DNA of 64,000 nucleotides from Pontiella desulfatans. Its GTDB lineage: Bacteria > Verrucomicrobiota > Kiritimatiellia > Kiritimatiellales > Pontiellaceae. Under the pieces are notes generated by a model, which was not told where the DNA came from, did not search any database, and saw only the letters and a program-made list of their open reading frames with translations. This document shows positions 5,139-58,042 of the stretch, piece after piece. The DNA is taken from assembly GCF_900890425.1 (NCBI RefSeq), contig NZ_CAAHFG010000004.1:304798-368797 (forward strand), given 5' to 3'. A program made the translations under genes and the position numbers. Positions within the stretch are counted from its first letter, which is position 1. The number at the start of each line of letters is the position of its first letter.

Positions 5139-7328
5139 TCATCGCCGAGAAGCGGAACGCAACTCCCGCAATCTAAAGTGAGCGAATTCCAAGGGAGACC
5201 CCGCAGTTATTTCCATATTTGGTTTTTCAGGCGGAATGAAATCCGGATGGAACCGGGGGTGAGGAAAAAGGGCGTTTCCACCTTCATAGCCGTCATTGGT
5301 GTAATAACTGACCATCCCGCGATCACAGATAAGGCGCACCCGGTTCATTCCATTAACAGGCTCGATCGCTTTATAGCCTAGGTCGGCAATCTCGTATGTG
5401 CTGTTTTTTGCACGGAATGAAAATATGTCTTGCCCCCAGACTGCCAAGTTGAAATCGCGACTGCTTTTAGCATCCCATTCAAACTCGATATCGTAGAGGC
5501 CCGGTTTGATTTCTGACAGTCCGGCATTCAGGCTGTCCGATTGAATATTCCTGAAACTGTGCTGCGCCGTTACCAGCCCATCGATCTCCCTGACTGGATT
5601 CAGGTATAATCTGGGTGCCCCGCGGAACGAGCGCAAAGTCGCTTCTATGGGTATGTTCAAACCGCCGCTGACGGGCATGGAGGGATCGTGCTCAAAATAA
5701 TCGCACGTTGGCGTTGCCCCCATCATGATGCACCGGCCACCGGGCGCATTATTGAAGGTTTGCGGCGCCAGATACATACCTTTGAAGGTCTGGATTTTCT
5801 GCTTGGTTTCGGGAACAAACTCACGGCCGTCAAATTTTCCGATGCGGTAGCTGCGGGATACATCCTGAACGATCCATTTCATATTTTCCGGGTTCCCGTC
5901 GAGCGGCAGGCAGAACAAATCGGGGGTTTCAAACCAGTCGGGCGATGAGCTCAACCAATTCCAGTCAACCAGGTTTTTTGAATCGTAGAAATCAAACGTC
6001 CATGGTCCTTTATTGCGGCGGTCATGGATAATCATGACCCATTTCTTTTGGGGGGGATACCAGACCACCTTCGGGTCATGCCCAGCAGGGTCATTGGTCA
6101 AAAACAGAGGATTATTTTTATATTGTAGATAGGTTTTACCACCATCCGTGCTGTAAGCCAATGCGGTAGCCGACCGCCTGTTCTGGGAATAAAAGAGCAA
6201 TATGGGAGGCACATCCCCCTCCTGCAACCCGCTATCGTTATTCCGATCCACCACGCCGCTTCCAGAAAAGGCATCCCAACGCAATCCTTTCGGAATGCCG
6301 AAATCCTGCTGGACCCAATCAAAGAGATTCGTGCTCGTTGCATGGCCCCAGTGCTGATTGCCGCCATCGACACCCACCGGATTATACTGGAAAAAGAGAT
6401 GCCAGAGACCGTTGTAATAGTATAACCCGTTGGGATCCCAGCTCCTGCCCTGATCCGGTGTGAAGCGTAACTGCGGCCGGGCCGGTTCGGAATAGACCCT
6501 ATCCCTGCCTGTGACAGCGGGAACCAGTTTGATTTCGTCTTCCATCGCTTCCAGATGATCTTTGTATATGGCGGCCCCTTCACTGTACATACGCAGTTCA
6601 ACTCCCGGCTTGAGATGTTTCAACGGATACATAGCGCAGAAATCCACGGGGCGGTTTGCCGCCAACCGGAGTTCAATGTCCAGCTTGGCTGCGCCATCCA
6701 CTTCCAAAACATACCGAATCCGGGGGGCATCGAAATTGATAGGGAGTTCCAGGAAGTTATTTTCCGCCATCTCCATGCGCTTATCAAGCGGCACGGTCTG
6801 GGAGACCGGATAGAGAGGATATACATTTTCACGAAGCGAATCGCTGGCGACAATATGGTCCACGAGCACAAACTGCCACCCCCCGGAATCGCGTATAATC
6901 AACTGGGCCCGCTTACCCTGAAAACTGGAAACATCGAACGTCATTAATGAAAGCGTATTCCTGGACTCCACCTGCGCCAGGTATTCGGCTTTCCCGTCCA
7001 CCAGCAGTTCCAACCCCGAATGCTTCCCTACGCTCCGTCCACCCATGAGAAAATGGATATACGGCCGCTCAATAATAAACTCTTCTGAACTCAAAGATCC
7101 TGAATATAGATCACGGACACCACCGTCGCTGTTGGCCAGCCCACCGCCCATGAACCCCTTGATTCGATCCTTTGCTTTATTCAGGTCCGCAAAAGCTTCA
7201 CCCTCGGCTTTCCAACCGGCCATATCGCCTTCAAAATCTTCAATGACAATATCCGGACGCTGTGCCGCGTTGCATGGAGCCAAGCCCAAAATAAAGCCCA
7301 GGATGCTCAATGGTATAGCTGTTTTCAT
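5139..7328 (-). CDS. GH32-type beta-fructosidase with N-terminal beta-sandwich, divergent motifs
   Basis: Predicted exported GH32 enzyme acting on fructosyl linkages. ATG 7328 has AAGGAG seven bases upstream and starts a signal peptide (MKTAIPLSILGFILG...CNAAQ). Residues about 25-170 form a carbohydrate-binding-like domain beginning IEDFEGDMAGWKAEGEAF, shared with the neighbouring GH32. The five-bladed propeller starts near residue 290 with DPNGLYYYNGLWHLFFQYNP, followed by FSGSGVVD, HDPKVVW and FETPDLF. The catalytic Asp, Asp and Glu are kept, but three motifs are unusual: SWDPNG for the common NDPNG, HDP for RDP, and ETP for ECP. It is the last gene of the kinase/transporter/GH32 operon. 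The deviations may mean an altered subsite or substrate; loss of activity is possible. Confidence 0.85.
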   Translation of the reverse strand: MKTAIPLSILGFILGLAPCNAAQRPDIVIEDFEGDMAGWKAEGEAFADLNKAKDRIKGFMGGGLANSDGGVRDLYSGSLSSEEFIIERPYIHFLMGGRSVGKHSGLELLVDGKAEYLAQVESRNTLSLMTFDVSSFQGKRAQLIIRDSGGWQFVLVDHIVASDSLRENVYPLYPVSQTVPLDKRMEMAENNFLELPINFDAPRIRYVLEVDGAAKLDIELRLAANRPVDFCAMYPLKHLKPGVELRMYSEGAAIYKDHLEAMEDEIKLVPAVTGRDRVYSEPARPQLRFTPDQGRSWDPNGLYYYNGLWHLFFQYNPVGVDGGNQHWGHATSTNLFDWVQQDFGIPKGLRWDAFSGSGVVDRNNDSGLQEGDVPPILLFYSQNRRSATALAYSTDGGKTYLQYKNNPLFLTNDPAGHDPKVVWYPPQKKWVMIIHDRRNKGPWTFDFYDSKNLVDWNWLSSSPDWFETPDLFCLPLDGNPENMKWIVQDVSRSYRIGKFDGREFVPETKQKIQTFKGMYLAPQTFNNAPGGRCIMMGATPTCDYFEHDPSMPVSGGLNIPIEATLRSFRGAPRLYLNPVREIDGLVTAQHSFRNIQSDSLNAGLSEIKPGLYDIEFEWDAKSSRDFNLAVWGQDIFSFRAKNSTYEIADLGYKAIEPVNGMNRVRLICDRGMVSYYTNDGYEGGNALFPHPRFHPDFIPPEKPNMEITAGSPLEFAHFRLRELRSASRR

Positions 7329-7352
7329 AATACGACTCCTTCCCAATTGTGT

Positions 7353-9470
7353 CTACGGCTTCGAAGACTTCCAGATCGACTGAAGGCGGTAGGCCTTGAA
7401 CGACTTTATCTTTCCTGTTTTCACCGCCGTTTCGGTGGACTCGAAGTTTATCGGGTCGCGGCGACGGACTTCATAGTAAAGCCCGCCATCAGCATAGACC
7501 TCATTAAACGTCCGGTCGGTAAAAATGCGTGCGCTGCGCCCTTCAAAGGAAGCCTCAATGCCGTTGATCATGATTTCATGAAATCCATCCTCTTCAAATT
7601 CGATCAGGACTTCCGTCAATTCACCTTCGCACGCCTCCAACGTCTGGAGCATTTCCCCGCGCAGCTTTTCAACCTCCTTGACCGGGTTGAACGCCATACG
7701 CAAACCGTCGGCTGCCTTGACCAACGTCAGCTCATGCGGCAGCGTGAAAGACTGGTTAACGATCTGGGCGGGGAACTGTTTCGGATAGGCGTCGGTGCGC
7801 ACCCAGCCGATCTGGATGCGGCGTCCATCGGGCACATCGCTGAAAGTTTGCGCGGCATAAAACGCCCCATGGCGTGAACCATGCGGCCCGGATTCCTTCA
7901 CAAAGGTGCGGCCATTAAACTGCCCAATAAAATAGCGATTCTGCGCACCATAGAAAATCCACTTTGCTTCATTCCCGCACGACAATGGAAAGAGCTCCGG
8001 GCATTCATGAATGGAAGCGCGGTCCGTATCGGTGAATGCGCCCGTACGCTTCCATTCACGCAAGTTCCTGGATTCATAAAACGCGCAGTTGGCAAAAACA
8101 TGCTTCTGCTTTCCACCCAGTGGAACCGCCTTTGTTTCGTCACACTCTTCCGTATTGTATACCGCCATCACCCATTTCTGCTCCGGCTCGTACCAGATGA
8201 TTTTCGGATCGCGCCCCTTGTGCACAACCACCGGGTTTTCCGGCAGCTCGGCAAAAGAGATTCCCCCGTCCGTACTGTAGGCAAGGCACTCGCCACGCCC
8301 TGTGCTGGTGAACGCGGCAAACTGCATGTTTTCGCCCAGTCCGGCCGAGTTGTTGAAATCAACGAAGCCGCCACCGGAAAACATCATATCCTTCACGGTC
8401 TTCTGGAACAGCGCGATCGGCTTTTCCTCCCAATGGATCAGGTCAGTGCTTTCAAAATGGCCCCAGTGCATGTTGCCCCAGCCGATGCCGAATGGATTGT
8501 GCTGATAGTAGAGGTGATACTTGCCATCATGATAAACCATGCCGTTGGGATCGTTGTTCCAACCGCGCCGCGTGGATGGGTGGAACTGGTTGCGGTAGGG
8601 TTTGGCATAATCAGCCGCCTTTCCGGCAGGCAAACCGTCATGGCAGCGAATGCGCGCAAAGGCATCCCGGTATGCCTCGTTCACCAGCCCACCCTCAATC
8701 GGCTTGACGGTGATCTGCCGACCCAGCAGTCCAAAATGGTCCAACGGGTACGCTGCCTCCCAGTATGCATCGTCTTTGCGGGGCAATGTGATCTTAAACG
8801 TCTGAATCAGCGTATTGCCGTCGTAAATCCCCAGGGGGATGGCATCGTTTCCGGCATTCACCACCGGCACCAGCAGGTGGGAATCGGTAACCGCAATGGA
8901 GGCCTCCAACGCCACCAGGCTCGGCGGGGGAGCGTTCTGCCCAACCGCGCCTTCCACGGGATGGTCCGACTGCACAATCTGATCCACATTGATATGCCCC
9001 CATCCACCGGTATGGTTATCGACAATCTGCAGTACGGCTTTCCCTCCAGCATATTCTTCAACATCCCAAAATGCCCATTCCATAACTTCCCGTCCGGCAT
9101 CCTTCCGGGCCGAACCGACCGCCGTGCGGACGGGTTTCCCATCCACCAGCAAGTTTATGCAGGTTTGGCCTTTGTGATTGCCGCCACCGATCAGGAAATT
9201 GATATACCTGCGCTCGATGGTGAATTCCGGCGAGGTCAGCGAACCGGAGGACGTATCTCCTTTGAGAAAGGTATTCACCAACCCGTCGCCCAGATGCCCC
9301 GTCACCTTGTTGGGGGGCGAAACATTCGCCTTCGCCGGAGCGGCCCCGAACGCCTTGCCCTCCACCCTCCAGGCGCCATAGGAGTCGCCCTCGAAATCCG
9401 CAATCGAAATATCGTCCGCATGCGCGGCACAGGCCACCAGTAATCCCGCTGCAATCCATTTTCCATCCAT
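7353..9470 (-). CDS. GH32-type beta-fructosidase (levanase/inulinase-like)
   Basis: Predicted exported GH32 fructan hydrolase of 705 residues. ATG 9470 follows TGGAG at good spacing and opens a signal peptide (MDGKWIAAGLLVACAAHA). The much longer upstream frame is rejected because it overlaps the transporter gene. A beta-sandwich domain (FEGDSYGAWRVEGKAF...) fills residues about 25-170. The catalytic propeller shows all classic motifs: WNNDPNG with FHPSTRRGW before it, MMFSGGG, GRDPKIIW and HECPELF, giving the Asp nucleophile, transition-state Asp and acid/base Glu. It starts 14 bases after the sugar porter gene and is followed 24 bases later by the divergent GH32. Together with the kinase it indicates use of a fructose-containing glycan. 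Exo or endo mode is not visible. Confidence 0.93.
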   Translation of the reverse strand: MDGKWIAAGLLVACAAHADDISIADFEGDSYGAWRVEGKAFGAAPAKANVSPPNKVTGHLGDGLVNTFLKGDTSSGSLTSPEFTIERRYINFLIGGGNHKGQTCINLLVDGKPVRTAVGSARKDAGREVMEWAFWDVEEYAGGKAVLQIVDNHTGGWGHINVDQIVQSDHPVEGAVGQNAPPPSLVALEASIAVTDSHLLVPVVNAGNDAIPLGIYDGNTLIQTFKITLPRKDDAYWEAAYPLDHFGLLGRQITVKPIEGGLVNEAYRDAFARIRCHDGLPAGKAADYAKPYRNQFHPSTRRGWNNDPNGMVYHDGKYHLYYQHNPFGIGWGNMHWGHFESTDLIHWEEKPIALFQKTVKDMMFSGGGFVDFNNSAGLGENMQFAAFTSTGRGECLAYSTDGGISFAELPENPVVVHKGRDPKIIWYEPEQKWVMAVYNTEECDETKAVPLGGKQKHVFANCAFYESRNLREWKRTGAFTDTDRASIHECPELFPLSCGNEAKWIFYGAQNRYFIGQFNGRTFVKESGPHGSRHGAFYAAQTFSDVPDGRRIQIGWVRTDAYPKQFPAQIVNQSFTLPHELTLVKAADGLRMAFNPVKEVEKLRGEMLQTLEACEGELTEVLIEFEEDGFHEIMINGIEASFEGRSARIFTDRTFNEVYADGGLYYEVRRRDPINFESTETAVKTGKIKSFKAYRLQSIWKSSKP

Positions 9471-43006: not shown

Positions 43007-44512
43007 ATGTTTAAACACCTGTTGATTGCCGCAGTGGCCGCCGCAAGTATCTGCGCCGTGGCTGAAACCGAAAAACCCAACATCCTGTTTATTTTTGCCG
43101 ATGACCTCTCCTATGAAACGATCGGTGCTTTCGACATACTCGACATTGACACCCCCCATTTGGACAGCCTGGTTGAGGCCGGCACCACCTTCACGCATGC
43201 CTACAACATGGGCGCCTACAACGGGGCCGTCTGTGTGGCCAGCCGTGCCATGCTCAACACCGGCCGTTTCGTCTGGGGCACCTATCAGCACGACACCGGC
43301 CCGAAAATGAAAGCAGAAGTCGAAGGCGGTCGCATGTGGTCGCAGCTGATGAATAAAGCCGGCTACCGCACCTATATGACCGGTAAGTGGCATGTTAAAG
43401 CCCAGCCTTCGGACATTTTCGATGTAGCGGCCAATGACCGCCCCGGCATGCCGAGAGACTTCTGGCGTCAGGGATCCGCCGATGGGATCAAGCCAAAGCA
43501 TTACGGATACTTCCGTCCGGTGGATGAAGAGGATTATAAAAACGGCTGGAAACCCTGGGATACCTCGAACGGCGGCTTCTGGGAAGGCGGAAAACACTGG
43601 AGCGAAGTGGTGGCTGATGATGCACTCGATTTCATTGCCGATGCAAAAGAACACGAAGAACCCTTCTTTATGTATGTCGCATTCAACGCAGCCCACGATC
43701 CGCGGCAGGCTCCGAAAGAATATATTGATCGCTACCCACTTGATCGCATTAAGTTGCCGGAAAACTTTGTTCCGGCCTATAAATACCAGGATGAAATCGG
43801 CTGTGGAAAAAGTCTGCGCGATGCGGCCCTCGCCCCCTTCCCGCGCACCGAGTTCGCTGTAAAAGTACATCGTCAGGAATATTTTGCCCTCATCACACAC
43901 ATGGATGACCAGATCGGTCGCATTCTCCAAGCCCTGGAAGAATCAGGAAAAGCCGACAATACCTATATCGTTTTTACCGCCGACCATGGACTGGCCGTTG
44001 GACGACACGGGCTGATCGGCAAACAGAATATGTATGATCACAGTGTCCGCGTTCCATTCATGGTCGTTGGTCCGAATATTGACAAAGGGACCGAAAATAC
44101 AAATCCGATCTACCTCCAGGATATCATGCCGACCAGCTTGGAGCTGGCCGGTGCGCCGATTCCCGATTATGTCGAATTCAAAAGTCTGAAAGCGCTGCTT
44201 GAAGGTAAAAAAGCGGAGCACTATGACTCCATTTACGGTGCCTATAAAAATCAGCAGCGTATGATTCAGAAAGGCGACTGGAAATATATCGCCTATCCCA
44301 CCTGCGATGGTGAACGTCTCTACAACATTAAATCAGACCCCTTCGAAATGAAGGATCTATCCACGAATCCTGAATATGCCGCCAAAATGAAGGAGCTGCG
44401 GTCCGGACTTCTTGCCCTCAGTACCGACCTGAACGACCCGCTCGACTACAACGATCCGGTCACCAGCTGGAAAAAAGCAGCGCCTTCAAAATCAAAAAAA
44501 GCGGCTCATTGA
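43007..44512 (+). CDS. S1-type sulfatase with variant CxASR maturation motif
   Basis: A 501-residue exported sulfatase; AGGAGAG precedes the ATG. Signal peptide MFKHLLIAAVAAASICAVA; metal site ILFIFADDLSYETIGAFD near residue 28; TGKWHVKAQP near 127; VFTADHGLAVGRHGLIGK near 325. The formylglycine site reads C76-V-A-S-R, with Ala in place of the usual Pro; Ala at this position is reported in some sulfatases, so activity is likely but the maturation system may be different. Lys-rich C terminus (KKAAPSKSKKAAH). Paired with the GH29 at 41428, it probably desulfates fucosyl units. It is the last gene before the foreign-looking element on the right. Confidence 0.9.
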   Translation: MFKHLLIAAVAAASICAVAETEKPNILFIFADDLSYETIGAFDILDIDTPHLDSLVEAGTTFTHAYNMGAYNGAVCVASRAMLNTGRFVWGTYQHDTGPKMKAEVEGGRMWSQLMNKAGYRTYMTGKWHVKAQPSDIFDVAANDRPGMPRDFWRQGSADGIKPKHYGYFRPVDEEDYKNGWKPWDTSNGGFWEGGKHWSEVVADDALDFIADAKEHEEPFFMYVAFNAAHDPRQAPKEYIDRYPLDRIKLPENFVPAYKYQDEIGCGKSLRDAALAPFPRTEFAVKVHRQEYFALITHMDDQIGRILQALEESGKADNTYIVFTADHGLAVGRHGLIGKQNMYDHSVRVPFMVVGPNIDKGTENTNPIYLQDIMPTSLELAGAPIPDYVEFKSLKALLEGKKAEHYDSIYGAYKNQQRMIQKGDWKYIAYPTCDGERLYNIKSDPFEMKDLSTNPEYAAKMKELRSGLLALSTDLNDPLDYNDPVTSWKKAAPSKSKKAAH

Positions 44513-49453: not shown

Positions 49454-50453
49454 GAGCAATTTAATTTAAACTGTAGCCGCATGAGGCAAACCAACCTTGA
49501 GCATCCGCCGCACTAACGCACCCTAAGGCAGCGCCGATCGCATCAAACAGAGATTCCAGGGAGCGCGCTTTTTCCCCGCGAAGCAATTGCTTTACTTTGC
49601 TCCACATCTTTTCGATGGGATTGAGATCAGGACTGTAGGGCGGAAGGAACCAAACCTCTGCCCCAGCTTCTTCGATCAACTGTAACGAAGCCTTGTCCTT
49701 ATGAGCCGAGAGGTTATCAAGCACAACGATATCGCCCACTCGAAGAGTCGGAGCTAGAACCTGTTCGACATAGGCACGGAATACATCGCCGCTTGTGGCG
49801 GCATCAATCGCCATGCAGGCTGTTTCTCCGTTGAAACGAATGGAGGAGATCATGGTGGTGGTACACCAATGGCCATGCGGGGCGTGATCGTAAGCCCGCT
49901 CATTTTTCGGCGAGCGTCCGTACAGCCGAGTCATATTGGTCTTGGCTCCAGCCTCATCAATAAAGACCAACCGAGCAATGTCAAGTTGCCCTTGCATGGC
50001 CATCCACTCAGCCCGTGCGAGTTTCACGTCTTCGCGCCCTTGCTCGCTGGCGTGAAGCGTTTTTTTTAAAGCTCATCCCCATGTCCTTGAGTACATAGTG
50101 AATGGCAGGCAGCGTGCAATCGAGCTCCAGTTGCTCTCGGATCTCCCACAACGTGATATCAGGTTGCCGATCAATCAGCGTTTTCATCTGCTTCCGGTGC
50201 TCTTGGGTGAAGTAGGGTTTTCTTCCTGAATGGCTGTGAAGCGGGGCGATATCGCCGGTTCGCTTCCGTTGCGAGAGGAGCTTCTTTACCATACCAAGCG
50301 ATACCTTGTATCGGTCAGCAATGTCCTGCCGGGTTCCTTCTCCGGCATCGTAGGTGGCCAGAATTCTCTGGCGTAGATCCAGTGATAGAGTGCTCATGCA
50401 AAGAACTCTACACAATGACTCATCTAATGGCTATAGAATTATTTAAAATGCTC
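49454..50453 (-). mobile_element. IS630-family insertion sequence, 1000 bp, flanked by TA
   Basis: Ends are GAGCAATTTAATTTAAACTG on the left and, inverted, GAGCATTTTAAATAATTCT on the right, and both are flanked by TA (49452-49453, 50454-50455), the target duplication of IS630/Tc1 elements. The transposase is coded in two frames. Removing the element and one TA would let the 118-residue gene at 50439 end in ...CLG and a stop. Confidence 0.88.
49461..50397 (-). CDS. IS630-family transposase, two frames joined at an A8 slippery run
   Basis: The first frame (ATG 50397) encodes the N-terminal helix-turn-helix (LDLRQRILATYDAGEGTRQD, RYKVSLGMVKKLL) and a second HTH. It runs into eight A (minus strand; 50060-50067) and leaves the family sequence. 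Shifting frame there gives KKTLHASEQGREDVKLARAEW, the expected continuation, followed by the DDE catalytic part: VFIDEAGAK, VVLDNLSAHK, and PPYSPDLNPIEKMWSKVK with the final Glu. IS630 elements often use programmed frameshifting at such a run, so the element may still be active; a simple inactivating slip is the alternative. Combined length about 310 residues. Confidence 0.85.
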
Positions 50454-50840: not shown

Positions 50841-51245
50841 CTATCCGGCAGCGTTAATGACAATCTCTTTTCTTTGACCGCTCTTTAACCGGACGGTGAT
50901 AAGGCCGCTGGCTTCAAGCCTGTCCAACGACCGCTTCGCAGTCAGCTCCGTGCCCACCCCGTGCTCTGAAAGACGCCTGTGGCTGATCTGGAAGGATTCC
51001 CCGCGGTTAAGGCCATGGTGGTGCCACAGGATCATCCCCGTATGCAGGCATTTTCCTCCCAGTGCCCCTGCCGCGGTCACCCACGACAACGGCAGAGGTC
51101 CTTTGATGAAGAGTTCGTTATCCGTCTTCGGGGCGTCCGCCACGTTACCGACATCACCGCCGCCGACAGCGGTATCGACATCGTTACCGGCACCGGTATC
51201 AACCACGTCATCTAAAGCAAATTTATCTCTCAGGCCTTCCATCAC
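50841..51245 (-). CDS. Winged-helix DNA-binding protein, probable element regulator
   Basis: A protein of about 134 residues starting at GTG 51245 or ATG 51242. The first 40 residues are Asp/Val/Gly-rich and probably unstructured. The rest is a winged helix: LPLSWVTAAGALGGKCLHTGM, SFQISHRRLSEHGVGTELTA, KRSLDRLEASGLITVRLKSGQRKEI, a standard helix-turn-helix followed by a beta wing. The tandem 22-base palindromes at 51285-51329 lie directly upstream with a TATAAT box (minus strand, 51269-51274), so it may repress itself. It could also be a replication initiation factor, since it neighbours the DNA polymerase gene. Confidence 0.7.
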   Translation of the reverse strand: MMEGLRDKFALDDVVDTGAGNDVDTAVGGGDVGNVADAPKTDNELFIKGPLPLSWVTAAGALGGKCLHTGMILWHHHGLNRGESFQISHRRLSEHGVGTELTAKRSLDRLEASGLITVRLKSGQRKEIVINAAG

Positions 51246-51284
51246 ACTCTCTACTATCTAATAGATATATTATAAGATTGGGCG

Positions 51285-51329
51285 GGGGTATCAGAATTGA
51301 TAGGGGTCCCCTATCAGATCTGATAGGGG
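51285..51329. promoter_or_regulatory. Two tandem 22-base palindromic operator sites
   Basis: Site 2 (51308-51329) is a perfect palindrome with half CCCCTATCAGA; site 1 (51285-51306) has the same inner TATCAGA..TTGATA arms but GGGG on both sides. One base separates them, so their centres are 23 bases apart. They overlap the stop codon of the polymerase gene and the expected -35 region of the winged-helix gene, whose -10 box TATAAT follows at 51274-51269 on the minus strand. Confidence 0.75.
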
Positions 51330-53041
51330 TCGAGGCTCCGGTTGATGACGTCCCACACCCACTCGCCACCAAAATCAAATCGGTCTGGGTACCGCACGAT
51401 CTCGGCGTCGCTGCGCAGCTTGAATCCACCGAGTACAGCGGCGGATGCCTTCGTCATACACGACTGCATACAAGCCACGTCGCTATCAACGCTATCGGCA
51501 TCGGCCTCGATAAGGAATGCATCATGCACGGGCGCACAGATACCGATACCGGCCTCTGTCGCCAGCACCGCCGCCATCCTCATCATCTCCGCGCCGTTAC
51601 CCTGCATGGGGAAATTGGCGAGGGAACGGGGGTTGGCATCGGCCGGTACCGCACGCTGCCAGTCAAATACCGTCCGCAAACGCCCTGTGAGTATCGCCGA
51701 GTTCACAACGCGCTCCTGCCACTGCCAGAACCGGGAAAAGGCCGCACGGTGCTGTTTAAGCAAGTTACGGGCTTCGAGCCGACTGCATGCCAACCGCGCA
51801 GCCAAACCGGCCTCGCCCATGGAGTACTGCACACCAAGAACAACGGTCTTATAGATGTCGCGTTCAGCACCATGCGTCTCCCGAGTTGCCGACGGCGACA
51901 CAGCTCCCACAAGCTTGGCAAAACCCAAATAGGGATCGCCACTGTCATAGGCCGTCATCATCGCCTTATCCCCGGACAGAGCCGCCGCAATGCCGAATTC
52001 CTGCTGATCCCAATCGATATAGGCCAGGGCCTTACCGGGTTCAGGACGGATAACAGACCTCAGCCACTTTGATTGCCCGAAGATAAACTTTGAGGACGAT
52101 GGTTGGTTACGACCTGTAACCGACGCGAATGGCGAGAGTATGCAGCGGTTACGGCCATCGGGGCCTACAGCGAGTTTGTTATTTCTCAGTTGAATCAGGG
52201 TACGGCGCAATGTGCGTACGACATCGACGTCCGGGTGAACCTTAGCCATATCGCGGAAAACACCATCGTTTAGTGCCAGCGCACCGGATTCCAGGCGCGG
52301 CCAGTCGATGCCCCTTACACGAACCCACTCAGTGAACAACCGGGTATTGAAGCAGTCATCAATAAAAAAGCGGCATCCCAACCGCTGTTCAGCCTCGGTT
52401 ATCAACGCCGTTACGATTTCCGAACGGTGTTCTGAAATGTAATCCAGTTTTTCGACATCGACGGGAATGCCCCGGCGCTCCATGGCCGCAATGGACTTGG
52501 TGTATTCACCGCGCCACCGACAGTACGGATCTGTCAGGCTATCGCACAAAACCTCCCAAAGCCGGGCAGCTGCGCTAACATCACTCTCGCAGTATTCGAG
52601 TATACGTTTACGCTGGTCACCGGTGTAGATACAGTTATCTATAATGAGTGAGCGGATCTCGTCTTTGTCATCGAGGCCCGTAACCGGCAAACCAAAATAT
52701 ATCAAGGCACCGACCAGGCCGTTGCCATGAGCAACTGGTACGCCGTTAGTGGCACAGCGGAATTCGACATGAAGATCGACAACATTGACCGGTAGCGGCC
52801 ATCCCAGCTCCAAAAAGCATGACATCTCGGCCGCCGCGTAATACGCGATGACCAACGACGAGCGGCCAGCAGCAAAAGGAGCACGGTCAAGTTTAAGGAG
52901 ATCATCACGCCACAGACGTATCACCCTCCCCGACCGCAGCTCCTTAGCCACCATGCATACCACGAAGGGCCGGTGCCCCGAAGGACACCGGTATTCAAAG
53001 TCGACCACCCAGATCTCGTCGTACGGGTCACACCACGCCAT
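51314..53041 (-). CDS. Family A DNA polymerase with 3'-5' exonuclease, phage/plasmid type
   Basis: A 575-residue replicative-type polymerase. The N-terminal 165 residues form a DEDDy exonuclease: WVVDFEYRC (motif I), VNVVDLHVEFR (motif II region) and EYCESDVSAAARLW (motif III, YxxxD). The polymerase part has motif A YIDWDQQEFG near 340, motif B RDIYKTVVLGVQYSMG near 395 and motif C PVHDAFLIEAD near 505; both metal-binding Asp are present. It is much shorter than bacterial Pol I (about 930) and lacks the 5' nuclease domain, as in phage enzymes. Its ATG overlaps the stop of the 228-residue gene (ATGA). A chromosomal repair role is unlikely; replication of the element is the natural reading. Confidence 0.92.
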   Translation of the reverse strand: MAWCDPYDEIWVVDFEYRCPSGHRPFVVCMVAKELRSGRVIRLWRDDLLKLDRAPFAAGRSSLVIAYYAAAEMSCFLELGWPLPVNVVDLHVEFRCATNGVPVAHGNGLVGALIYFGLPVTGLDDKDEIRSLIIDNCIYTGDQRKRILEYCESDVSAAARLWEVLCDSLTDPYCRWRGEYTKSIAAMERRGIPVDVEKLDYISEHRSEIVTALITEAEQRLGCRFFIDDCFNTRLFTEWVRVRGIDWPRLESGALALNDGVFRDMAKVHPDVDVVRTLRRTLIQLRNNKLAVGPDGRNRCILSPFASVTGRNQPSSSKFIFGQSKWLRSVIRPEPGKALAYIDWDQQEFGIAAALSGDKAMMTAYDSGDPYLGFAKLVGAVSPSATRETHGAERDIYKTVVLGVQYSMGEAGLAARLACSRLEARNLLKQHRAAFSRFWQWQERVVNSAILTGRLRTVFDWQRAVPADANPRSLANFPMQGNGAEMMRMAAVLATEAGIGICAPVHDAFLIEADADSVDSDVACMQSCMTKASAAVLGGFKLRSDAEIVRYPDRFDFGGEWVWDVINRSLDPYQI

Positions 53042-53715
53042 CAGAAATCTGCTCCCCTCAACTTTTTAAGGAATGGATGATCCTCGTTATCGATGGCGGA
53101 CGCCCGCAGCACATCATCGTACAACCCTGCGATATCGACATCCGACCAATCGGGGGCTTGTGGACGGGAAGCCGGTTCCTGCGCTTTGTACGCACCGATA
53201 CCCCGCACGGCTATGACACGAACCCATTTCCCCGCGTATTTACCGGCGATGACATGCGCGCTTTTATGCCAGGTGTTCCAGTTGCCGGTTTCATCCGGCA
53301 GCCCGACCGGCCACAGGCGCACACTGCCATCAACCAGCTTATAGGGCACCAGCACCATCTTCCGGCACTCATCAGCGAACTCATCCATCAGTTTAGGATG
53401 GAGAACGTAGTGCTCACCGGATTCGTCATCGGTCATGATGTAGCACGTCATACGCGCGCCGGAATCTGGGCAGGGGCTGACAAACTCCTGCTTCTTCGGC
53501 TTCGCGATCGACACGGTACACTGCACGGTTTCAGTGATGCCGGCAGCGCAATCCTGATCAAGTGCGTAATCCGCCATGCTGGCCGACAGCGGCACCGGAG
53601 CCGGTTCATCGGCCCCGACACTGAAGTCGGCGGAGGGGCCGACAACGGCCTCCTCCACCACGGTTACGTCACCGCCCGGCGACACCTGCGTATCATGGTC
53701 ATTTTGATTATCCAT
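53041..53715 (-). CDS. Unrecognised protein coupled to the DNA polymerase
   Basis: From ATG 53715 (GGAG six bases upstream) the product has 224 residues. The first 70 are acidic, rich in Asp, Val and Ala and probably disordered. A folded part of about 130 residues follows (VSIAKPKKQEFVSPCPDSGA, YVLHPKLMDEFADECRKMVL, LVDGSVRLWPVGLPDETGNW, WVRVIAVRGIGAY). The C terminus is acidic with LYDDVLRASAIDNEDHPFLK. The four-base overlap with the polymerase start shows that both are made together, and an acidic tail would suit a DNA mimic, a single-strand-binding-protein-like factor or a polymerase partner. No family is recognised. Confidence 0.7.
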   Translation of the reverse strand: MDNQNDHDTQVSPGGDVTVVEEAVVGPSADFSVGADEPAPVPLSASMADYALDQDCAAGITETVQCTVSIAKPKKQEFVSPCPDSGARMTCYIMTDDESGEHYVLHPKLMDEFADECRKMVLVPYKLVDGSVRLWPVGLPDETGNWNTWHKSAHVIAGKYAGKWVRVIAVRGIGAYKAQEPASRPQAPDWSDVDIAGLYDDVLRASAIDNEDHPFLKKLRGADF

Positions 53716-53729
53716 CATATTCTCCATGG

Positions 53730-56053: not shown

Positions 56054-57199
56054 TTACCCGTGTTTCAGCTTGGATAACCAAGCCTTGAAGGCCTGCTCAT
56101 ACCGAGCATCGATCCGCCTTAACCGTACGCAATACTGTCTCGTCCTGACCTCGGGGATAGACGATGAGGACACTGTCTTCTTCCACATTTCGTTGGATAC
56201 AGCGTCTAGTTCTCTTATTACCTGCGATTTCCGAAGTTTGCTGTCACGCCCCTCCAAAGAGCGGTAAACAATATTAACAACTTCCAATAGCTGATCATCA
56301 GAAAGCTTCCCCGATTTGGTAGCAGCTTTTTCAATACCGGTCACTGAATTCACCTGGGCACATACAACCCTATAGGCTTCATGCGGAAAGTGATTCTTCA
56401 ATCCAACTCCGGCGTATCCTGAGGGCATTACGATCCGCACAGTACCGGTTACTCCAACAACAGTACGGCCATTAATAAGATCGGGGCGCTCAAACCTAAA
56501 AAAATCCCGGTCCCATTCTGATTTTTCTCCTAGCCGGATGCAATATAGCCCGTACTCCTGGAAGACTGATACCGCCTTGAACAATGCCTCTTTCTGCAGA
56601 TGCACGTCGGAAGAATTTGCCGATAACTCGAATTCCATATAACCAAGCAGCTCGTTATACGAAGGTGCGTGAAGGCACCCTTTCCCATCACAAAACGGCA
56701 GAAGGTATTTCCCGTGGTCTTCTATGAGAGACCGAACCGCATCCTCTGTGGCGACTGCATTATAGGCCGTGGGCGTCAACAGATTCCACTCCCTCCACTT
56801 CTTCGGAGGCTTTGTGAACATGTAGTCAAGCTGAACCATTTGCTTCGCCAGCGTAAAAGCTCTGCCCGCACCAACCGAGTGTGCGACCCGAGCACCATCC
56901 CCATCCTCATTCGGACATGTTGGAGGGACGGAGGGGAAGATACTACTAACATAGATCTCGACCTCTTTGTTCCAGTCATACGCAGAACTCTGAAGCAGTT
57001 GTTCCAACTCCTCGAATACCTCGGTGGCATCCCACGGAAGGCGAGGCTTCGTCAACGATATCTCAACCTCCCTGAAGACCTGCTGAAATGTCTTTCTGCC
57101 CGGACTTAAAGCCAAAGCGTCACTACCAGCATATTTTGCCACCAGATCCTTGTACGTAAGAACTCTTGCAGCATATTTCCGAATATAGTTTTCAGACAC
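56054..57199 (-). CDS. Unrecognised protein adjoining tRNA-Lys
   Basis: A 381-residue protein starting most likely at GTG 57199, seven bases after GGGAGA (a further frame extends to 57232). It is mixed alpha/beta and near neutral, with segments SENYIRKYAARVLTYKDLVA, KKWREWNLLTPTAYNAVATE, DDQLLEVVNIVYRSLEGRDS and RYEQAFKAWLSKLKHG at the end. I see no Arg-His-Arg-Tyr pattern of a tyrosine recombinase and no serine recombinase motif, although the position next to the tRNA is where an integrase would be expected. It begins the co-directional block. Function unknown; a novel recombination or replication factor is possible but unproven. Confidence 0.65.
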   Translation of the reverse strand: MSENYIRKYAARVLTYKDLVAKYAGSDALALSPGRKTFQQVFREVEISLTKPRLPWDATEVFEELEQLLQSSAYDWNKEVEIYVSSIFPSVPPTCPNEDGDGARVAHSVGAGRAFTLAKQMVQLDYMFTKPPKKWREWNLLTPTAYNAVATEDAVRSLIEDHGKYLLPFCDGKGCLHAPSYNELLGYMEFELSANSSDVHLQKEALFKAVSVFQEYGLYCIRLGEKSEWDRDFFRFERPDLINGRTVVGVTGTVRIVMPSGYAGVGLKNHFPHEAYRVVCAQVNSVTGIEKAATKSGKLSDDQLLEVVNIVYRSLEGRDSKLRKSQVIRELDAVSNEMWKKTVSSSSIPEVRTRQYCVRLRRIDARYEQAFKAWLSKLKHG

Positions 57200-57271
57200 A
57201 AATGCTCTCCCTTGATCCCATACCGTTACCACAAATTGAAGTATCAGAGAATTAGAATCAGGAAATCCCGA

Positions 57272-57394: not shown

Positions 57395-57470
<76 letters not shown>

Positions 57471-57998: not shown

Positions 57999-58042
57999 GA
58001 TGTTGCAGTTATGCTGACGGCCGTCAGCATAACTGCAACATC
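57999..58042. repeat. Perfect 44-base palindrome without spacer
   Basis: The half GATGTTGCAGTTATGCTGAC-GG is followed immediately by its exact reverse complement. Symmetry breaks on both sides after 22 bases. It lies just beyond the transposase remnant. Confidence 0.9.

Follow-up and report, generated by a model that had tools for sequence, protein, structure and literature searches.

A probable iteron and AT-tract replication origin beside a family-A DNA polymerase gene in an integrative element of Pontiella desulfatans

RepA of pSK41 and pTZ2162 places a winged-helix domain on iterons. For the RepA_N systems (pSK41, pTZ2162 and PLE RepA), the passages of PMC7145576 that deal with them describe semi-palindromic direct repeats, which are also present in a phage satellite. 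In the account of ori lambda given in the relevant part of PMC7466680, O acts as dimers, the minimal unwinding unit consists of two iterons and an AT-rich region, and several iterons are directly followed by an AT-rich tract, the whole being tied to the initiator gene. The iteron origins of RK2 and F, as outlined in a section of PMC4081077, have iterons beside an AT-rich DNA-unwinding element (DUE) with short repeats, which are 13-mers in RK2. A similar arrangement is present in the 64,000-nucleotide stretch of DNA analysed here (the window, to which all positions refer unless another locus or contig is named), where the block at 51250-51329 is probably the iteron and AT-tract replication origin of an integrative mobile element; from the sequence comparisons presented below, we put the probability of this reading at roughly 0.7. 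The locus differs from each of these systems. In lambda, the iterons are inside the initiator gene and the partner gene is P, whereas here they are found at the junction between the genes of a family-A polymerase and of a winged-helix protein (wHTH), the initiator would be about 130 aa long, and lambda O has no family-level sequence match to wHTH (PHROG phrog_678 being weak at best). The RepA_N systems have other iteron and AT-tract sequences, there is no RepA_N sequence match here and the fold match to 4pql and 4pt7 is not specific, while the present element brings its own polymerase. In RK2 and F, Rep has two winged helices and DnaA boxes are possible, in contrast to the single winged helix and the lack of clear DnaA-box enrichment observed here.

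The coordinates of the features are collected in Table 1. On the minus strand, the final polymerase codons are followed by CCCCTATCAGATCTGATAGGGG, then A, then CCCCTATCAATTCTGATACCCC, and the polymerase stop codon (51314-51316) sits inside the first repeat (51308-51329), in agreement with the overlap pointed out in the preliminary description of this locus. The two nearly identical 22-base palindromes reported there are so only in part: the copy at 51308-51329 is palindromic over its whole length, but the one at 51285-51306 is identical to it at 16 of 22 bases and is a 14-base dyad. The core is common to both iterons, while the outer flanks of iteron 2 (GGGG...GGGG) are non-palindromic and its palindromy is limited to TATCA-N4-TGATA. 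The centres of the dyad cores lie 23 bp apart, which supports the two-turn spacing proposed earlier. Together, the two copies also form a larger inverted repeat, whose 18-nt arms show 89% complementarity and are 1 nt apart. A palindrome of at least 22 nt appeared by chance in 1 of 30 first-order Markov copies of the window. When the 8,658,305-bp assembly was searched with the twin-site pattern TATCANNNNTGATAGGGG, a zero-mismatch match was obtained at this place only, and allowing one mismatch gave a single other site (C3:370152, adjoining a tRNA-Lys gene), the same number as in the control search. As the pattern is unique in the 8.66-Mb genome, the objection that the site might be common throughout the genome does not apply.

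Table 1 Features of the polymerase/winged-helix junction, its flanking genes and the right end of the island
Feature	Position in the window	Strand	Basis or remark
134-aa winged-helix protein (wHTH), proposed iteron-binding initiator	50841..51245	-	linkage, structure model, recognition-helix/half-site relation
AT-rich TCTTAT/TCTATT tract, proposed DNA-unwinding element	51250..51279	-	AT content, repeats
Conserved core CCCGCCCAATCTTAT	51272..51286	-	family consensus CCCGTACA-N-TCTTAT; leave-one-out score 28.1
Iteron 2, GGGGTATCAGAATTGATAGGGG	51285..51306	-	14-nt dyad TATCA-N4-TGATA at 51289-51302
Iteron 1, perfect 22-nt palindrome CCCCTATCAGATCTGATAGGGG	51308..51329	-	sequence
Iteron 1 core TATCAGATCTGATA	51312-51325	-	sequence
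Family-A DNA polymerase, 575 aa	51314..53041	-	Pfam DNA_pol_A 1.5e-24; phrog_17 6e-49
228-aa protein, tentative gp32-like single-stranded-DNA-binding protein	53041..53727	-	family preceding the polymerase; weak fold match
tRNA-Lys(CTT), probable integration target at the right island end	57395..57470	-	truncated copy and integrase elsewhere

A class-wide search of 345 genomes identified homologues of wHTH, two of which directly follow a polymerase that is 48% identical to that of the window. From the three class-level matches, L026 and L027 were used and L028 (E 0.007, partial, in a 571-aa frame) was set aside. Together with the window, the best 80 of 129 confirmed genome loci from a search based on the polymerase alignment, and 22 viral-contig loci, they make up a set of 105 loci. 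The near-identical loci L036, L061, L066 and L112 were removed. A wHTH profile matches 92 of the 105 loci, belonging to many phyla, and each match is directly downstream of the polymerase and on the same strand; 13 loci have no wHTH match, among them L044 and L100, whose contigs stop at or shortly past the polymerase. Clustering of the open reading frames was done for 97 loci (105 minus 4 duplicates and minus 4 loci numbered above L126), out of which 77 have a 216-aa family ahead of the polymerase and 56 a tyrosine integrase. In L073, the gene at positions 7163-7651 of that locus, directly after wHTH, codes for a small terminase subunit (PF05119, 2.4e-11), and other loci contain a gene with what we take to be a large-terminase-like sequence. 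Polynucleobacter and Dechloromonas are represented in the set by, for example, L073 and L041. The 228-aa protein of the window is a diverged member of the 216-aa family, with which it aligns at 18-30% identity, and escaped the clustering. The top VIA-align rows for its model are gp32 of RB69 and T4 (Z 4.5-4.7, which is weak), and Foldseek gave nothing below E 0.5. Among the scanned proteins, none could be recognised as a helicase or primase of the element. The polymerase thus marks out a family of mobile-element modules that extends across phyla, and some of its members may be prophages or phage satellites.

The layout commonly found at the junctions of this family consists of dyads, then CCCGTACA, then an AT tract with TCTTAT repeats. 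The dyads of the relatives are 16-17 bp long, have the form TG...CA with CCTACC-like spacers between them, and are followed by CCCGTACA-N-TCTTAT and an AT-rich run. As in iteron-type origins, the site is repeated, with two to four units at a period of 21-24 bp (most frequently 23 bp; the window has two units), and a short-repeat AT-rich tract adjoins the dyads. The best array period (score of at least 5.5) is 23 bp at 16 of 88 distinct junctions, compared to 1 of 88 shuffles, and 22 bp at 8 of 88, compared to 2 in shuffles. With a leave-one-out weight matrix, 43 of 101 loci reach 18 or more at the junction, compared to 1 of 101 in the reversed control; these block counts overstate the number of separate events because homologous loci are not independent. 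The block of the window reaches 28.1 bits with a model trained without the window. Block scores are poor in loci such as L051, L081 and L087, and the search gave no block in others (e.g. L050, L062, L094 and L126). The core of the window, CCCGCCCAATCTTAT, has one exact match in its own genome, namely at 51272-51286, and the tract at 51250-51279 exceeds all other 30-mers of the 13.6-kb segment 44001-57600 in AT content. For 26 of 88 loci, window included, the most AT-rich 30-mer of the locus is located at the junction, and the junction 30-mer is within the top 0.2% of the locus for AT content in 50 of 88. The 55 blocks that are clearest contain 52 copies of TCTTAT, where shuffling predicts 3.7, and spacings of 11-14 nt between TCT repeats are enriched. 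DnaA boxes show no clear enrichment, with 3 found within 250 bp of these blocks. The half-sites within a unit covary, giving 172 Watson-Crick pairs against 122 ± 7.4 with shuffled partners.

The same sites could be read as an operator and promoter only, with wHTH dimers on the twin dyads repressing their own gene, the AT tract as the promoter and no origin at all, a reading which we consider unlikely. In most loci, the block is indeed directly upstream of wHTH and in the same orientation, as is expected of an operator; wHTH is a generic MarR-, GntR- or CodY-like winged helix, and a TATAAT lies within the AT tract of the window. The preliminary description had placed a -35 element over the palindromes with TATAAT behind it: the TATAAT is present, but no sigma-70 hexamer pair was found at 50900-51600 of the window. 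The core is, in addition, kept across phyla and yet not common in the host genome, where it has the single exact match mentioned above. What speaks most clearly for an origin is the location of the block in the relatives. A block scoring 18 or more lies outside the junction in four loci, none of which has a junction block. In L095 it precedes the polymerase stop by about 2.7 kb and is on the opposite strand (score 30.7), and in L044 likewise on the opposite strand (26.1), wHTH not being seen there and the contig ending; in L039 and L103 it is upstream on the same strand (19.0 and 18.4, respectively). Arrays also occur downstream of wHTH, with four 22-bp repeats in L109 and three in L122, in both cases leading into GGTCC-TATTCTTATT-type tracts, and L110, L116 and L119 have similar but weaker arrays and tracts in the same place. 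Since the cases downstream of wHTH were located by array search and by eye, those of the L109/L122 type weigh less than the four scored loci. Some loci in which the wHTH start overlaps the polymerase end have no junction block, and in several of these the block is found elsewhere, as described above. A strict twin-dyad scan was positive at 11 junctions and gave matches elsewhere in 12 loci; in L064, L065, L070, L076, L084 and L123, no TCTTAT-type tract is found in the 40 bases after the strict-scan repeats, which are probably unrelated repeats. The wHTH promoter could not be served by an operator placed beyond wHTH or facing away from it, whereas both positions are open to an origin, and the origin is therefore the preferred reading. 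The promoter operator acting as a switch, as first proposed, is not retained, given that the block runs into the CCCGTACA core and the AT tract, lies elsewhere in several relatives, and that no sigma-70 promoter was found in the window. The tie to element replication contained in that proposal is supported, although an origin fits it better than a compact switch.

The preliminary description had also assigned the site to the neighbouring winged-helix protein, and it is very probable that wHTH binds the dyads. This is suggested by the linkage of wHTH in 92 of the 105 loci, by the recurrence of the dyads and by residue 100, which appears to track the half-site beyond phylogeny. The covariation test was based on 54 loci (72 sites, minus 14 with an unclear register or a best match other than the block, minus 4 hand-picked ones), with the site of the window shifted by one base. 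Out of 87 wHTH columns compared with the half-site and corrected for polymerase distance, the one containing E100 of the window came out on top (r 0.195), at 1 in 1,001 at first and 0 of 20,000 permutations on repeat. E100 is the first residue of helix 100-112 in the structure model, predicted to be the recognition helix, a label which we take from general knowledge of winged helices. Columns outside this helix (e.g. G96, G60 and N80) also have p 0.002, with a smaller r, and partial Mantel tests were not significant for the whole of wHTH (p 0.09) or helix-wide (p 0.14). As for the residue-100 classes, D is mostly found with TGCG-type half-sites and Q with TGTTAA; for H the half-site is often TGTGCG, and for K it is TGTCCC or TGGGAC. 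The E100/GTATCA combination of the window is the sole case of its class in the test. L029, from Nitrospina, shares Q and TGTTAA with Polynucleobacter loci that are distant from it, and differs from L035, to which it is more closely related and which has H and TGTGCG.

Winged helices of TubR systems bind iteron arrays, and TubR chains are among the weak Foldseek rows of wHTH. A centromere-like partition site for a TubR- or ParR-like winged-helix protein is nevertheless very improbable, since the partner that is constant is the polymerase, with neither TubZ nor ParA identified, and since the AT tract would be left unexplained. We give equally little credit to a packaging (pac/cos) site of a phage or satellite: the small-terminase gene (PF05119) right after wHTH in L073 would suit it, but the variation of the site tracks the wHTH helix, and the sole terminase label among the scanned proteins of the window, phrog_57 (E 2.5e-7), belongs to an HTH_17 protein of 62 aa which also matches excisionase families. 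An RNA hairpin behind the polymerase gene, working as a terminator or as an RNA regulator, is hardly credible and was rejected. Folding of the strand is moderately better than that of shuffled sequences (z -2.0, 6/200), but the Watson-Crick covariation comes without enrichment of G-U among the mismatches (0.14 vs 0.14), no terminator and no Rfam match were found, and there are blocks on the other strand and ahead of the module.

The identity of the putative initiator is less apparent from its own sequence. The 134-aa wHTH has no match in Pfam or PHROGs (both at E 0.1), NCBIfam or the PDB sequences; it matched only itself in a set of 58 relatives and nothing in viral contigs, and a search of phages and plasmids with its L026 homologue as the query gave no match. 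The predicted structure has a pLDDT of about 93-97 over the domain and matches the RepA initiators 4pql (Z 8.6) and 4pt7 (Z 8.3), presumably from staphylococcal plasmids, tied with many unrelated winged helices; CodY, TFE, CRP and ORC rows equal or outrank RepA. The modelled fold is that of a generic winged helix, and the fold search does not discriminate. In the viral structure library, the top rows include replication proteins, a replisome organizer and an O protein, none of them below E 0.001. Among 85 wHTH members, the PHROG matches are all weak, and the leading families are of replication-initiation, DnaD-like and O-like type (phrog_270, replication initiation, in 19 of 85; the O-like phrog_678 in 9 of 85, best E 0.004), and the weak Pfam matches are to transcription regulators (MarR_2 25/85, Crp 24/85, GntR 23/85). 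RepA_N is absent among the 25 Pfam families listed of the 55 matched by these members. Sequence does not support placing wHTH in the protein families of O or RepA_N.

According to the origin model, a wHTH dimer would sit on each dyad, so that two iterons 23 bp apart are occupied, and the iteron-bound protein would help melt the adjoining TCTTAT-repeat AT tract. At the melted tract, the family-A polymerase and the probable single-stranded-DNA-binding protein could then start or join the copying of the excised element. With the array occupied, the wHTH gene downstream may be repressed as well, in which case autorepression would be an added effect. More tentatively, it is possible that cross-phylum integrative elements carry a replicon which has not previously been described as such, in which a dyad-iteron and TCTTAT origin of about 90 bp is combined with an initiator of about 130 aa that has a single winged-helix domain, with an SSB-like protein and with a family-A polymerase, and whose origin specificity would diverge via one position of the recognition helix. 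A description of the module was not found in a search of the open literature by titles and opening lines of abstracts; subscription papers were mostly outside the scope of this search, so its absence is not proven. If the model is correct, one short motif locates the origin in widespread mobile elements, from Planctomycetota and Verrucomicrobiota to Betaproteobacteria, and the module would be a small replicon system for studying how DNA melting and the recruitment of a family-A polymerase can be achieved by one winged-helix domain. The residue-100/half-site classes (D, Q, H and K) are directly testable predictions of specificity.

Regarding the borders of the element, a 58-nt copy of the 3' half of tRNA-Lys (86% identical) is present at C4:299474-299531 in the same orientation, with no tRNA gene there, and is adjoined by a gene coding for a 440-aa tyrosine integrase. 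The tRNA-Lys gene at 57395-57470 and this truncated copy are probably the two ends of the island; should they be the two att sites, the island would be about 62.8 kb long and contain positions 1-57470 of the window. A gene at 43007-44512, which we take to be sulfatase-like, is within the probable island. Farther downstream of wHTH are genes for a PD-(D/E)XK nuclease, a RadC-like and an ArdC-like protein. Two overlapping frames at 49461-50415, also downstream of wHTH, are presumably, by resemblance, an IS630-type transposase inserted in the element. The 392-aa protein encoded at 56054-57232 adjoins the tRNA and has no match in Pfam, PHROGs or NCBIfam. About 530 bp past the tRNA-Lys gene, at 57999-58042, there is a perfect 44-nt palindrome, far longer than expected by chance.
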